A stretch of 35,930 nt of DNA, from NCBI GenBank assembly GCA_012839235.1, contig DUNS01000286.1, positions 1-35,930 on the forward strand, in the 5' to 3' direction. Positions within the stretch are counted from its first letter, which is position 1; each line of letters opens with the position of its first letter. Below are positions 6,315 to 19,608 of the stretch, in pieces. The position numbers and the translations under genes were made by a program. The notes under the pieces were generated by a model. That model saw only the letters and a program-made list of their open reading frames with translations. It was not told where the DNA came from and made no database searches. Source of the stretch: Clostridiales bacterium. Lineage in GTDB: Bacteria; Bacillota; Clostridia; Lachnospirales; Lachnospiraceae.

Positions 6315-7304
6315 ATGTACGACTTTCATCAAATATTAGGGCACGATAGTGTCAAAGAACATTTGCAAAATGCTATAGCATCTAGGAAGGTTTCCCATGC
6401 CTACGTCTTCCATGGTGAAGAGGGAAGTGGTAAAAAGATACTTGCTATGGCCTTTGCCAAGACTCTACAGTGTGAGGATGGAGGTAAAGCTCCATGTAAT
6501 CATTGTGTTTCCTGTAAACAGGTGGAAACTAATAATCATCCTGATATAATGTGGGTAACCCATGAAAAGGCCAGTATAGGTGTTGATGATATAAGAGATC
6601 AGATTAATGGTGATATTTTAATTAAACCCTATAGGAGTCCCTATAAGATTTATTTGATAGGTATGGCGGACAAGATGACTGAAGCCGCTCAGAATGCTCT
6701 GCTTAAGACCTTAGAAGAGCCACCAGTATATGGAGTAATAATTCTCTTGGTCAATAATATTAATCGTATATTACCAACAGTATTATCTAGATCCGTCGTA
6801 CTCAATCTAAGACCAATAGATAACCAGGTTATAAAAGACTTTTTGATGACAGATCATCATGTTCCAGATTATATGGCAAGGATTGCTGCTGACTTTTCCG
6901 GTGGAAATGTGGGCAAAGCTATCAAATATGCAACATCAGAAGAATTTGAAGAGATGAAATCACAGGTCCTTCACATCCTTAAATATATTGATGAGATGGG
7001 TCTGCATGAGATTGTTTCTGGAATAAAAACAATTACTGCCAATAAGGGAGCAATTGATGATTATCTGGATTTGATATTATTGTGGTACAGGGATGTATTA
7101 ATGCAAAAAGCAACGAATGACCCAAATCTGCTAACATATAAAGAAGAGTATCAATTCATAAAGGGACAAGCTAGGACTAGAAGCTATAGCCAGATTGAAA
7201 ATATTATAAAATCCATAGAAAAGGCAAAACTTAGATTACAGGCCAATGTTAACATGGATATAGCCCTTGAGCTAATGTTGTTATCTATAAAGGAGAATAG
7301 TTAA
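6315..7304 (+). CDS. holB: DNA polymerase III subunit delta'
   Basis: 329 residues from this start. It is the non-motor clamp-loader subunit that helps load the sliding clamp at replication forks. The AAA+ domain has a Walker A-like GEEGSGKK (34-41), four zinc-binding cysteines (53, 61, 64, 67), 'QNALLKTLEEPP', and 'SRSVVLNLRP' in place of the usual SRC arginine-finger motif (the cysteine is replaced). An ATG at 6303 is in frame but sits only 1-2 bases from the GAAAGG site. The start at 6315 gives the N-terminus M-x-F-x-x-I-x-G-H usual in relatives, although the spacing (about 13) is long. Its TAA overlaps the ATG of ricT by one base, implying coupled translation. Confidence 0.9.
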   Translation: MYDFHQILGHDSVKEHLQNAIASRKVSHAYVFHGEEGSGKKILAMAFAKTLQCEDGGKAPCNHCVSCKQVETNNHPDIMWVTHEKASIGVDDIRDQINGDILIKPYRSPYKIYLIGMADKMTEAAQNALLKTLEEPPVYGVIILLVNNINRILPTVLSRSVVLNLRPIDNQVIKDFLMTDHHVPDYMARIAADFSGGNVGKAIKYATSEEFEEMKSQVLHILKYIDEMGLHEIVSGIKTITANKGAIDDYLDLILLWYRDVLMQKATNDPNLLTYKEEYQFIKGQARTRSYSQIENIIKSIEKAKLRLQANVNMDIALELMLLSIKENS

Positions 7305-14859: not shown

Positions 14860-17800
14860 ATGAAAAAGAGGGAAGATATACACAAGATCTTAATAATTGG
14901 ATCAGGACCTATTATAATTGGTCAAGCATCAGAATTCGACTACTCCGGAACACAAGGATGTAAAGCATTAAAGAATCTAGGATATGAAATTGTATTAGTT
15001 AACTCTAATCCAGCTACTATTATGACAGATCCTGATACAGCAGATATTACCTATATTGAACCTTTGAATCTAAATAGACTTACCGAAATTATTAAAAAAG
15101 AAAGACCAGATGCTCTTCTTCCTAATCTTGGAGGACAATCCGGTCTTAATCTTTGCGCGGAATTAGCCAATGCAGGGGTCCTTGATAAGTATGGTGTTAA
15201 AGTAATAGGAGTTCAGGTAGATGCCATTGAGCGAGGGGAAGATCGTATTGAATTTAAGAAGACTATGGACTCCATAGGGATAGAAATGGCTAGAAGTATG
15301 GTTGCATACACGGTTGATGAAGCTATTAAGATAGCAGCTGAACTAGGCTATCCAGTGGTGGTTAGACCTGCATACACTATGGGAGGTGCTGGTGGAGGGC
15401 TAGTATATAATATAGATGAGCTTAAAACCGTTGTTTCTAGGGGCCTACAGGCAAGCATGGTTGGCCAGGTTCTAATTGAAGAATCAATTCTTGGTTGGGA
15501 AGAGCTAGAGCTTGAGGTTGTTAGGGATGCAAGTGGAAAGATGATTACGGTTTGCTATATAGAGAATATAGATCCCCTTGGTGTCCATACAGGAGATTCT
15601 TGTTGCACAGCTCCCATGCTTACTATCTCTAAAGAGGTTCAAAAGGAGCTAGAAAGACAGGCACACAAGATAGTTGAGACTATAGAGGTAATAGGTGGTA
15701 CCAACGTTCAATTTGCCCATGATCCAGTGTCAGGAAGAATACTAGTAATTGAAATTAATCCAAGAACCTCCCGTTCATCTGCCCTGGCATCAAAAGCCAC
15801 TGGCTTTCCTATCGCTTATGTTTCCGCCATGCTAGCAGTAGGCCTAGACTTAGCTGATATACCCTGTAGTAAATATGGTAGCCTAGATAAATATGTTCCA
15901 GATAGTGATTATGTAGTAGTCAAGTATGCTCGATGGGCTTTTGAAAAATTTAAAGGGGCTGAAGATAAGCTTGGAACACAGATGAGAGCGGTTGGTGAGG
16001 CTATGAGCATAGGCAAGACCTTCAAGGAAGCTTTTCAGAAGGCAATTAGAAGCCTTGAAACTGGTCGTTATGGTCTAGGGCTAATAGCCAAGCTGGAAGC
16101 TAAATCTAAAGAAGAGTTACTAAATATGCTTCACATACCTACAAGTGAAAGAATTTTTATTATATATGAGGCTATCAAAAAAGGGGCGGGAATAGATGAG
16201 ATTTGCGAACTGACTAAGATGAAACCCTACTTTATAAATGAGATGAAGGAGTTAGCCTTAGAGGAGGAAAAAATAGCCTTCTTTAAAGGAACTCTGCCAC
16301 CAGTTCAGTATTTAAAGGAGGCTAAGCTTGACGGATTTTCTGACAAATACTTAAGTATGCTACTGCAATTACCAGAAAAGCAAATCCGTGACAGCAGGGT
16401 TGCGGCCGGAATAAAACAGACCTGGTGCAGCATACATGTAAGTGGTAGTCAGGACTCTAAGTACTATTATTCAACATATCATCTAGAGGAAGGTGATATG
16501 ACCAAGGTTGGCCTAGGTAAAAGTCAGAAGCAGAAGGTAATGATACTTGGTGGTGGTCCTAACCGTATTGGACAGGGAATTGAATTTGACTATTGCTGTG
16601 TCCATGCAGCATTTGCCCTAAAGGAAATGGGCTTTGAAACGATCATAGTTAATTGCAATCCAGAAACTGTATCCACTGATGCTGACACATCTGACAAATT
16701 ATATTTTGAACCTCTGACATTAGAGGATGTACTTAGTATATATGAAAATGAAAAACCCCTTGGGGTTATAGCTCAATTCGGTGGTCAGACCCCTCTTAAT
16801 CTTTCCGCAGAGCTAAAGGCTAATGGGGTTAATGTTCTTGGAACAACTCCTGAGACCATAGATCTGGCTGAGGATAGGGATTTATTCAGAGAGAAGATGG
16901 ATAAACTGGGGATACCTATGCCTGAGTCAGGGATGGCAGTAAATGTTGAAGAAGCCCTTCTAATTGCTAAAAGGATTGGCTACCCAGTAATGGTAAGGCC
17001 TTCTTATGTGCTAGGTGGTCGGGGGATGGAGATAGTCCACGACGATGGAGGAATGGAAATATACATGAAAGCAGCAGTGGGAGTTACTCCAGACAGACCT
17101 ATACTAATTGACCGCTTTCTAAACCATGCACTGGAATGTGAGGCTGATGCAATAAGCGATGGTACCAATGGCTATGTGCCTGCTATTATGGAGCATATTG
17201 AATTGGCAGGAATACATTCTGGAGATTCAGCCTGTGTAATTCCATCATTAAGCATTTCTAAGGATAATATTGATACCGTAAAGAAATATACAATAAGCAT
17301 TGCCAATGAATTAGGGGTATGTGGTCTTATGAATATGCAGTATGCAATCGAGAATGATACGGTATATGTTCTAGAGGCGAATCCTAGGGCATCAAGAACG
17401 GTACCTTTAGTATCTAAGGTATGTGATATCAATATGGTTAAGCTGGCAACTGAGATTATTATGAGTCCATATACAGGCAAAGAATCCCCAGTAACTAAGC
17501 TTAAGGATAAAACTTTTTCTCATTACGGAGTAAAGGAAGCAGTATTCCCCTTTAATATGTTCCATGAAGTAGACCCTATTCTTGGACCTGAGATGAGATC
17601 TACAGGAGAAGTTCTTGGAATGGCAGAATGCTTTGGTGAGGCCTTTTATAAGGCTCAAGAGGCCGCTGGTTCCAACATACCTCTTACTGGAACGGTCTTA
17701 ATAAGTGTAAATGATAAGGATAAGGCTGAGGTTGTTGAAGTAGCCAAGGGATTTCATCAATGTGGTTTCAAGATCCTAGCTACAGGAGGAACCTATGATT

Positions 17801-18093
17801 TAATAGTAGCTAATAATATTCCTGCAAAAAAGATCTTTAAATTACATCAGGGACGTCCTAATATTTTAGATGCGATCACTAATGGAGAAATTAACATCAT
17901 AGTAAACACACCAATAGATAAGAAAAGTGCCCATGATGATAGTTACATTAGAAAAGCTGCAATTAGAGGAAAGGTAAGCTACTTTACAACTATAGCAGCA
18001 GCCAAGGCGGGAGTTGCAGGAATAAAACAGATGAAAAACAACCAAGGAGCTGGAATACTATCCCTACAGGAAATCCACAGAAATATTAAGTAA
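14860..18093 (+). CDS. carB: carbamoyl-phosphate synthase large subunit
   Basis: 1077 residues, full length. Two homologous ATP-grasp halves: the first begins '[21 protein letters not shown]' and phosphorylates bicarbonate; the second begins '[19 protein letters not shown]' near residue 560 and phosphorylates carbamate. An oligomerisation domain lies between (about 400-545) and a C-terminal MGS-like regulatory domain (about 935-1060, '[11 protein letters not shown]') lies at the end, the site where UMP/IMP/ornithine act in relatives. It makes carbamoyl phosphate for pyrimidines and arginine, using ammonia delivered by the small subunit. No carA is next to it on either side, which is unusual. 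The next feature downstream is a 254-base hairpin. Confidence 0.97.
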   Translation: [1077 protein letters not shown]

Positions 18094-18125
18094 TATATAA
18101 AAACATATATAGAGTAAGATGTTTC

Positions 18126-18379
18126 AAGAGAGTAAAGGCTAAAAGTAATTGTCTTTGTTAATTTGCACAACACATAATAATCACATGTACTACAAAACTA
18201 TTTTAACCTCGCAACTGTTTGAAGTCGTTGGTACTTAGGTCATGTATTATATGACCTTATGTACCATTACGTACTTCATCCAAGCGAGAGCGTGTTGCGA
18301 ATAAAATACGTTTTGTAGTACATGTTTTTATATCGCTATGCAAATTAACAATCAATATACTAACAGCTTTTACTCTCTT
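18126..18379. repeat. 254-base near-perfect inverted repeat (MITE-like or giant hairpin)
   Basis: The two arms mirror each other almost end to end. Outer ends: AAGAGAGTAAAGGCT versus the complement AAGAGAGTAAAAGCT (14 of 15). Matching blocks: 13 bases at 18155-18167 with 18339-18351; 16 bases at 18183-18198 with 18310-18325; TCGCAAC (18209-18215) with GTTGCGA (18294-18300); and inner hairpins TGAAGT/ACTTCA and GGTAC...GTACC with TAGGTCAT/ATGACCT around 18229-18264. No gene is inside. Terminal inverted repeats with a non-coding palindromic core are typical of non-autonomous miniature elements. It also lies where a carB terminator would be. No clear target-site duplication was found. The flanking remainder of the 399-base gap is AT-rich and featureless. 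Confidence 0.8.
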
Positions 18380-18492
18380 TTAATATTAAAAGGCTAAACC
18401 TATGGATTATGATTAATATCTAAGGAATATAGGTAATATATATGGAATATATTTAATAGAATCGAATAAAAGCTTATCAAGGGAGTGATTAT

Positions 18493-19608
18493 TTGGCTGA
18501 CTATAAAAGAATGGTTTCCTATATGTATGCCTATGAGAACGGGCTAAAAAGAAAGAATGTAGGATTTGTTCGGATGGAAACAAGAAATGGGCAATGTAAG
18601 TTCACCTTACATGTGCAAATGGCTGGGCAACCAGATAGTATAGTGCCAACCTATCTGATCTATAGAAATAATGAGGATATAGGAGTTGTCTATCTGGGGG
18701 ATGCAATAATTAAAAATCAGGCTGTTGATAGTAAGCTCATAGCCAAAGAGGCAGATATCAATAATGCAGCAAAAGGATTGGGAAAAGCTTGTGGCATGAT
18801 ACTATTCATTAATTCATACGAGTTCTGTGCAACTTATTGGGATGATGAGAAGGTTGATGTGAATGATATTCTAGAAGCTTTAAAGCCTAAAAAGAAGCCT
18901 TCTAATGAGACTAAGGAGGAAATGGTTGAAAAGTCAGAAACAAAGCCTGAAGTGGAGTCTGAAGAGAAAGTGGTTAAGGAGCAGGAGTTAGATAAAGTTG
19001 AGGAAGACTCTAAAACCCTAGTTGAGGAAGTGGCTGATAATCTGTTTGAAGAAGTGAAGGTAGGGCCGGCCACAAAAGCTGTTGAAAAACCTATAGAGAA
19101 AATTGTTGAAACATCAGTAGAAGAACCAGTTCACCAGCCTGTGGAATCTTTACAGGGTCAGGATGAAGAAATTCCTTTATATAAACTACCAGGTGGCTAT
19201 AAGTTTACTCAGGGAGTACAAAGGGAGTACAAAGCAAAGACCCAGGCTGTTAAGGAGGTTGATGATAAATACTTTTCTTCATTTCCTAAGGTTAACCCCT
19301 TCGAAGACAAGACTGTAGTAAGATGTGCAAAAATGGAACCAAAGGACATAGGAATTCTACCAAAGGAGGTATGGGATTTTTCTAACAATAGCTTTTTACT
19401 TCATGGATATTATAGCTATAAGCATATAATATTTGCTAAGCTAATTGATCAAGAAGGAACCCGTTATATCCTAGGGGTTCCAGGAGTGTTTAATAATAAA
19501 GAAAAGTTTGTAGCTAAGATGTTTGGATTTACAAACTTTAAATCAGTAAAAAAACAGGCCCTTAGGCAAGGGGATTTTGGATATTGGTATGCTCCTGTTA
19601 AGATCTAG
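18493..19608 (+). CDS. DUF6128-like protein of unknown function
   Basis: 371 residues, beginning with TTG (site AAGGGAGTGAT 8 bases upstream). Three parts: a globular N-terminal domain (about 1-130, 'YMYAYENGLKRKNVGFVRMETRNGQ'); an acidic, low-complexity linker (about 134-230) full of E, K and V that looks unstructured; and a C-terminal domain (about 235-371, with 'VWDFSNNSFLLHGYYSYKHIIF' and a final 'QGDFGYWYAPV'). The N-terminal pattern resembles the DUF6128 family that I associate with Lachnospiraceae. No signal peptide or membrane segment is visible and no function is known. It is not in an obvious operon; the next genes run in the opposite direction. Confidence 0.72.
   Translation: MADYKRMVSYMYAYENGLKRKNVGFVRMETRNGQCKFTLHVQMAGQPDSIVPTYLIYRNNEDIGVVYLGDAIIKNQAVDSKLIAKEADINNAAKGLGKACGMILFINSYEFCATYWDDEKVDVNDILEALKPKKKPSNETKEEMVEKSETKPEVESEEKVVKEQELDKVEEDSKTLVEEVADNLFEEVKVGPATKAVEKPIEKIVETSVEEPVHQPVESLQGQDEEIPLYKLPGGYKFTQGVQREYKAKTQAVKEVDDKYFSSFPKVNPFEDKTVVRCAKMEPKDIGILPKEVWDFSNNSFLLHGYYSYKHIIFAKLIDQEGTRYILGVPGVFNNKEKFVAKMFGFTNFKSVKKQALRQGDFGYWYAPVKI

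Follow-up and report, generated by a model that had tools for sequence, protein, structure and literature searches.

MITEs, non-autonomous mobile elements without a transposase gene, are usually regarded as empty shells. QMITE2 of Coxiella and other prokaryotic MITEs, as far as the excerpted source goes, resemble the element analysed here in being short and gene-free, in carrying terminal inverted repeats (TIRs), in lying at AT-rich intergenic sites and in forming a stable stem-loop, and QMITE2 is flanked by duplications of 7–9 bp (PMC10969869). Small size is put down in the same excerpt to decay of transposase or core sequence (PMC10969869), whereas the interior of the present element is conserved, covaries and is common to elements with different ends. 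The bcr1–bcr18 repeats of the Bacillus cereus group are similar in that bcr1 has dozens of intergenic copies per genome and some families have a conserved RNA structure; 40–51% of bcr copies lie within an mRNA in two strains. Their mobility, however, is tied to a TTTAT motif, and a single core behind several ends is not reported in the available parts of these sources (PMC3446304, PMC6542083). TIMEs, derived from Tn3, are also non-autonomous, have long stem-loops and can form mosaics, but in the excerpted account they belong to one transposon family (PMC4133298), in contrast to the at least three end types found here with duplications of 6–8, 8 and 10–13 bp. REP palindromes share the palindromic form and the high copy number, and the inner hairpin of the present element likewise occurs alone and arrayed in a relative's genome (G006); the excerpt gives REP units as 20–40 bp (PMC3733652), while the elements here are 200–300 bp long with TIRs and duplications. 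Searches of an open-access library listed no paper whose title or abstract opening describes the element. A conserved core shared by elements with different ends was likewise absent from these search results and from the excerpts of the MITE, bcr and TIME literature that we compared.

The window, the whole stretch of DNA that was analysed, is 35,930 nt long. The features of the region concerned, in window coordinates, are as follows.

14860..18093, + strand: upstream neighbour, an ORF of 1077 aa (ORF list; synteny), which we take to be carB, as in the sequence-only reading.
18126..18379, + strand: the whole element, MITE-like and probably a non-autonomous, decayed copy (fold, arms, genome copies).
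18126..18147, no strand assigned: left TIR, AAGAGAGTAAAGGC... (arm match; L003, another copy in this genome, has similar ends with AGAGAGTAAAAG).
18148..18204, + strand: 5′ arm, which pairs with the 3′ arm and varies in sequence between copies.
18205..18314, + strand: conserved core, matched by covariance model R1 at 125.4 bits, this copy being among the 24 used to build the model.
18230..18265, + strand: inner hairpin, the most conserved part, GGTACTTAG...CTTATGTACC, with an unpaired internal loop TTA/TTAT.
18282..18293, + strand: side hairpin AAGCGAGAGCGT with a GAGA loop.
18315..18357, + strand: 3′ arm.
18358..18379, no strand assigned: right TIR (arm match).
18493..19608, + strand: downstream neighbour gene, 371 aa, matched in 33 of the 34 genomes searched in the genus (the own genome counted).

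The sequence-only reading had described a non-coding inverted repeat of 254 bases at 18126–18379 with 14 of 15 matching ends, and the analysis bore this out in each respect. The imperfect palindrome lies between carB and the 371-aa gene, its inverted-repeat arms fall at 18119–18147/18358–18386 and 18177–18198/18310–18331, its outermost 15 bases match at 14 positions when read from the sequence, and no ORF of at least 80 aa overlaps it in the window ORF scan. Within the window, AAGAGAGTAAA occurs exactly at 18126 (+) and 18369 (−) only, with a third site at one mismatch. The comparison of folding energy with shuffled sequence that had been proposed gave values far beyond the shuffles. As DNA, 18110–18400 folds at −63.3 against a shuffle mean of −23.1 (z −11.75; reached by 0 of 200 dinucleotide shuffles); as RNA, 18120–18385 folds at −106.9 on the + strand (z −14.2) and −112 on the − strand (z −14.0), again relative to dinucleotide shuffles. 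The core of this copy departs from a plain palindrome by asymmetric bulges, the side hairpin and the inner hairpin. At the position of the side hairpin, the core is longer in 16 of 40 listed copies of a relative's genome (G010). No target duplication is visible at the ends of the window copy when the sequence is read. The pair of TAAAGGCTAAA noticed near 18133 and 18387 does exist but does not represent a target duplication, since the first lies inside the left arm and the second beyond the element.

Further copies, which the earlier reading had predicted, are abundant. BLAST with the element gave 39 matches in the own genome (2.83 Mb, 305 contigs, 89.75% complete), self-matches on both strands counted. 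R1, a covariance model of the core built from 24 own-genome copies, gave 57 matches there with 150 of 943 candidates scored; two of these are reverse-strand shadows, which leaves at least 55 core copies. The search of close relatives also found copies within the genus, and the element is thus far from the single copy without homologues that had been named as evidence against mobility. To compare the site itself, we used the 13 of 24 fetched loci of relatives in which carB and the downstream gene are adjacent; the others do not reach or hold carB. A match to the core model is absent from the carB locus in 12 of these 13. The 13th, G010, has a family-A copy (families are described below) in the gap, in the opposite orientation and with a 7-bp duplication, AAAATAT. 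The window copy is therefore an insertion and not a feature of carB. The gap in G006 holds a different palindromic insertion without the core. Among 14 genomes, three different palindromic insertions are seen in the carB gap, those of the window, G010 and G006 (window 18094–18492, L332 and L328), and the gap is perhaps an insertion hot spot. Upstream of the downstream gene, GGAATATATTTAATAGAATC (window 18444–18463) is recognisable in 13 of 13 relatives, identical in L331 and altered elsewhere; it is perhaps a promoter.

The element is short, has no transposase gene, occurs as dispersed copies with TIRs, belongs to families with target-site duplications and is matched by core-free sites in relatives. 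We conclude, with a probability of about 85%, that the window element is one copy of a MITE, a mobile element that lacks a transposase and is non-autonomous. A transposase supplied from elsewhere would recognise the ends and paste the element into DNA between genes; the insertion in the window would be old, its ends decayed. The sequence-only reading had offered either a MITE or a very large structured RNA; copies, TIRs and duplications support the former, and compensatory change in the core leaves the latter as a putative property of the core.

The distribution of the core was examined at several taxonomic depths. Across the own genome and 40 relatives, R1 matches were found in 11 of 41 genomes, every one within the genus of the window (11 of 25 genomes, own included, against 0 of the 16 that represent other families in the order), with from 1 to at least 93 matches per positive genome when up to 93 candidates per genome were scored. 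In a sample of 291 Clostridia genomes with up to 13 candidates scored in each, seven had matches, all in the family of the window (7 of 10, own included; 0 of 281 elsewhere). A pattern scan of named genomes gave at least 117 stretches with the core. Among the 117 listed, 82 are titled Lachnospiraceae or by a genus assigned there, and the listed carriers include Anaerocolumna, Anaerobium, Anaerosporobacter, Herbinix, Acetatifactor and strain GAM79, all of which we take to be Lachnospiraceae. Anaerobium acetethylicum and Anaerocolumna sedimenticola are cultured carriers. A further 22 are titled Clostridiales, Clostridiaceae or Clostridium, one Eubacterium, and two are unplaced. The carrier family thus appears to be Lachnospiraceae. 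The remaining 10 of the 117 are titled after other groups (Gastranaerophilales 8, Bacteroidales 1, Muribaculum 1); these are MAG loci L121, L133, L159, L179, L187, L190, L202, L232, L203 and L214, and they count against a single-family range unless the bins are mislabelled, as we suspect.

Clean ends are found in two sets of G010 copies, family A starting with GATTTGAGTGTCAAAAGCC and family B with GTTACTGTTCACACC; the family-B copies of SIG294 are nearly identical to one another. Family C, with ends TAGGYAATTGCGAAACTC, was recognised among the named genomes. At up to one mismatch, the 15-base part of end A, TGAGTGTCAAAAGCC, has 91 + 83 = 174 sites in G010 (reversed-pattern control 0 + 0) and end B has 64 + 63 = 127 (control 0 + 1). 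Element ends were set by TIR plus target-site duplication, boundaries from arm extension being over-extended and left out of the counts. A search for such ends among 142 copies gave 24 rows; rows such as L156, L174, L178, L128, L035 and L194 were rejected as element ends because they are sited inside stems. Duplications were then counted in rows consisting of end pairs from all loci collected, a few of them core-less or nested. At up to one mismatch, family B has an 8-bp duplication in 22 of 28 rows and none in 6, and family A has one of 6–8 bp in 30 of 47, one of 5 bp in a single row and none in 16. A second count used flanks re-paired between elements as a control. Here family B has 8 bp in 21 of 27 (control mean 0.91), and family A has 6, 7 and 8 bp in 10, 9 and 4 of 45 (control 0.33, 0.77 and 0.17). 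Family C has 10, 11, 12 and 13 bp in 3, 5, 3 and 2 of 24 (control 0.15, 0.15, 0.15 and 0.08), with two further rows at 8 bp (control 0.09). The proposed check for target duplications was therefore positive for the families (A 6–8, B 8, C 10–13 bp) and negative for the window copy itself. From its core, from arm motifs such as TTAATTTGCAC/TGCAAATTAA and from the like ends in L003 of its own genome, we infer that the window copy belongs to family A. IS200/IS605-type and REP elements moved by an HUH transposase have neither TIRs nor target duplications, and the presence of both here argues against an origin of either kind. Three duplication lengths together with three unrelated ends suggest three transposases.

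The search for a transposase with matching terminal repeats, also proposed beforehand, found no autonomous partner for A, B or C in the places searched. DDE_Tnp_1 gave 8 matches in 3 of 8 genomes with no matching end pair for A or B, the IS256 type gave 13 matches in 7 of 12 genomes with flanks free of paired A, B or C ends, and the IS66 type gave one match in G010, the one genome searched, again without matching ends. The own genome, at 89.75% completeness, had no DDE_Tnp_1 or IS256-type match. L304 (596 aa, DDE_Tnp_1) was rejected as a partner: its one A-like end, near 1188, points away from the gene and has 3 mismatches. End pairs 0.7–4 kb apart in the collected loci enclosed ORFs unlike transposases by eye or were chance pairs. 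Two complete Anaerocolumna genomes have close end-A pairs about 90–275 bp apart and, at one mismatch, many unpaired sites; no transposase was recognised by eye in the four stretches read.

At least three families of elements, whose ends are unrelated and whose duplications differ in length, share the core of about 110 nt. In a possible type D, represented by a single G010 copy (L153), the core stands behind outer ends that also occur in an insertion sequence of Anaerocolumna with a DDE_Tnp_1 gene; no duplication is seen at this copy. Counting families A–C and type D, the one core is associated with at least three and perhaps four end types. Like-ended elements without the core are few. A core-less 120-bp design with A ends is present at two places, L204 (6-bp duplication) and L219; a 145-bp element with B ends is present at L221, with the duplication TAATTGAG; and a 118-bp element with C-like ends is present at L055 in the own genome and has no clear duplication. 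The L204 example (6528–6908, SIG294) is nested in a core-bearing family-A element. Eight of nine core-less A rows were viewed. Three are overlapping reads at L204 and one is L219, the second place of the 120-bp design, while L170, L283, L264 and L266 were rejected as core-less designs, being altered or deleted core-bearing elements. Among B rows, L247 (a deletion) and L333 (which contains unknown bases) were set aside. L352 (134 bp) was counted as a deletion because its family-A arms are kept and the centre alone is missing. Since at least three families with unrelated ends share the core, and since a few like-ended elements exist without it, the core is probably cargo and probably not what the transposases recognise.

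Evidence for constraint on the fold comes from covariation. The 24 own-genome copies have two-sided changes at 17 of 30 predicted core pairs. For larger samples, both alignments had their rows fitted to R1. In the genus, 87 distinct rows show pairing in 97.7% of cells (81.8 after shuffling), two-sided changes at 25 of 30 pairs and a covariation score of 0.458, against 0.171 when shuffled and no more than 0.116 in slid versions. In named genomes, 118 distinct rows, drawn from 100 of the 117 listed loci, show pairing in 94.1% (71.8 after shuffling), two-sided changes at 23 of 30 pairs and a score of 0.529, against 0.147 when shuffled and no more than 0.084 when slid; their count of further pair types was matched by 4 of 500 shuffles. 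Because the pattern used to select the named-genome rows fixes part of the inner hairpin, the selection itself accounts for some of the invariance in that set; most of the covarying pairs fall outside the fixed letters. Pairs of copies at increasing distance, tallied as pairs and not as events, have 34 one-sided and 0 two-sided changes at 1–4 differences, 126 and 20 at 5–8, 469 and 414 at 9–14, 1059 and 1856 at 15–22, and 4809 and 20 482 at 23 or more. Base pairs are thus preserved by compensatory change, which indicates that the core fold matters to the lineages that keep spreading.

Whether the fold acts as RNA or DNA was considered from mismatch types and orientation. In the core, with the conserved closing G-U excluded, G-U exceeds A-C by 39 to 13 and by 48 to 29, the cells not being independent. 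Isolated mismatches in the arms are 55 G-U to 62 A-C in family A, 30 to 13 in B and 31 to 29 in C. Copies are mostly intergenic, with 6 of 123 distinct copies with enough flank lying inside ORFs called by a simple rule. The 117 intergenic copies have no clear bias in orientation to neighbour genes (35 co-directional, 49 opposed, 17 convergent, 16 divergent). Rfam gave three matches for window 17900–18700 and five further loci, with E of 0.2–0.5 and all below gathering. The core is best described as a conserved fold carried by DNA elements, for which RNA appears more likely than DNA. The RNA reading is weak in its lack of an orientation bias, of a G-U excess in A and C arms and of an Rfam family. 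The core would be a separate portable module behind unrelated ends, and would more likely act as RNA from the + strand than as DNA. Its likeliest job, as far as sequence comparison can suggest one, would be that of a folded nucleic acid that either assists the element or tempers what it does to the host. We tentatively propose, at somewhat less than even odds, that it is a portable structured RNA cassette of Lachnospiraceae, taken up independently by at least three, perhaps four, transposition systems, and that this cargo persists as a unit with a function of its own.

Other explanations were weighed against these. It is very improbable that the palindrome is a fixed structured RNA or transcription terminator of carB or the next gene. 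Such a role would agree with the very stable fold and the compensatory changes in the core, and a simple scan of 17900–18600 for an intrinsic terminator (a short GC-rich hairpin with a T run) found none, so that the palindrome might take its place. However, the core is present in at least 55 copies in the genome, convergent gene pairs are not prominent among the intergenic copies (17 of 117), and a conserved carB element is refuted by the absence of the core from the gap in 12 of 13 syntenic relatives, the 13th having it reversed. The alternatives that concern the core alone are compatible with the mobile-element reading. In one of these, which we consider unlikely, the core would serve as a signal for transposition, such as a hairpin that has to be bound by a transposase or a host factor, and would be conserved on that account. 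Most TIR-paired rows do match the pattern of the inner hairpin (A 41 of 50, B 26 of 29, C 26 of 28), a share that is biased because many loci were fetched via the core, and the structure is kept in spreading lineages, the closest pairs of copies being one-sided by 34 to 0. Yet like-ended elements without the core exist, one design at two places, and one core serves three end types with different duplication lengths.

Somewhat less doubtful, though still on the unlikely side, is that palindromic DNA maintains its own pairing, template switching in replication correcting one arm from the other and giving covariation without function. Arms in the own genome match their own partner and seldom others (native mean 22.8 against 10.4 across copies; native best in 22 of 30), the relatives give 18.5 against 11.9 (native best in 5 of 12), and the A and C arms have no G-U preference. 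The contrast is weaker in the named genomes, at 15.4 against 8.7 (native best in 19 of 99, with 44 rows under 14). Template switching is also opposed by the one-sided changes of close copies (34 to 0 at 1–4 differences, 126 to 20 at 5–8), the order expected of mutation followed by compensation, and by the conservation of asymmetric bulges and the TTA/TTAN loop in own-genome copies. We also considered, and do not claim, that element families are born by fold-back replication, in which the core hairpin would copy a neighbouring insertion-sequence end into both arms; this would fit the family-specific arms.

Here a single folded centre recurs in elements whose ends differ, and its compensatory changes are as extensive as those known from functional RNA. 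Lachnospiraceae are a main group of gut bacteria, and the core model lets annotators label dozens of intergenic repeats per carrier genome. The finding also poses a testable question: does the cargo do something, be it to the element, to the host or to transcripts nearby, or does palindromic DNA maintain itself?

Some loci depart from the simple arrangement of a single core between two arms. In Anaerobium acetethylicum (L167, 4444–5086), four tandem cores lie at 178-bp spacing, with a family-A-like end, by eye, on one side only. In G006 (L076, 1231–1986, and L067, 1430–1471), the inner hairpin GGTACTT.G...CTTATGTACC is found alone and in arrays beside full cores, and for this reason it is perhaps the smallest unit. 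In G010 (L300, contig C13, about 994–2591), a DDE_Tnp_1 insertion sequence lies within the apical hairpin of a family-A copy.
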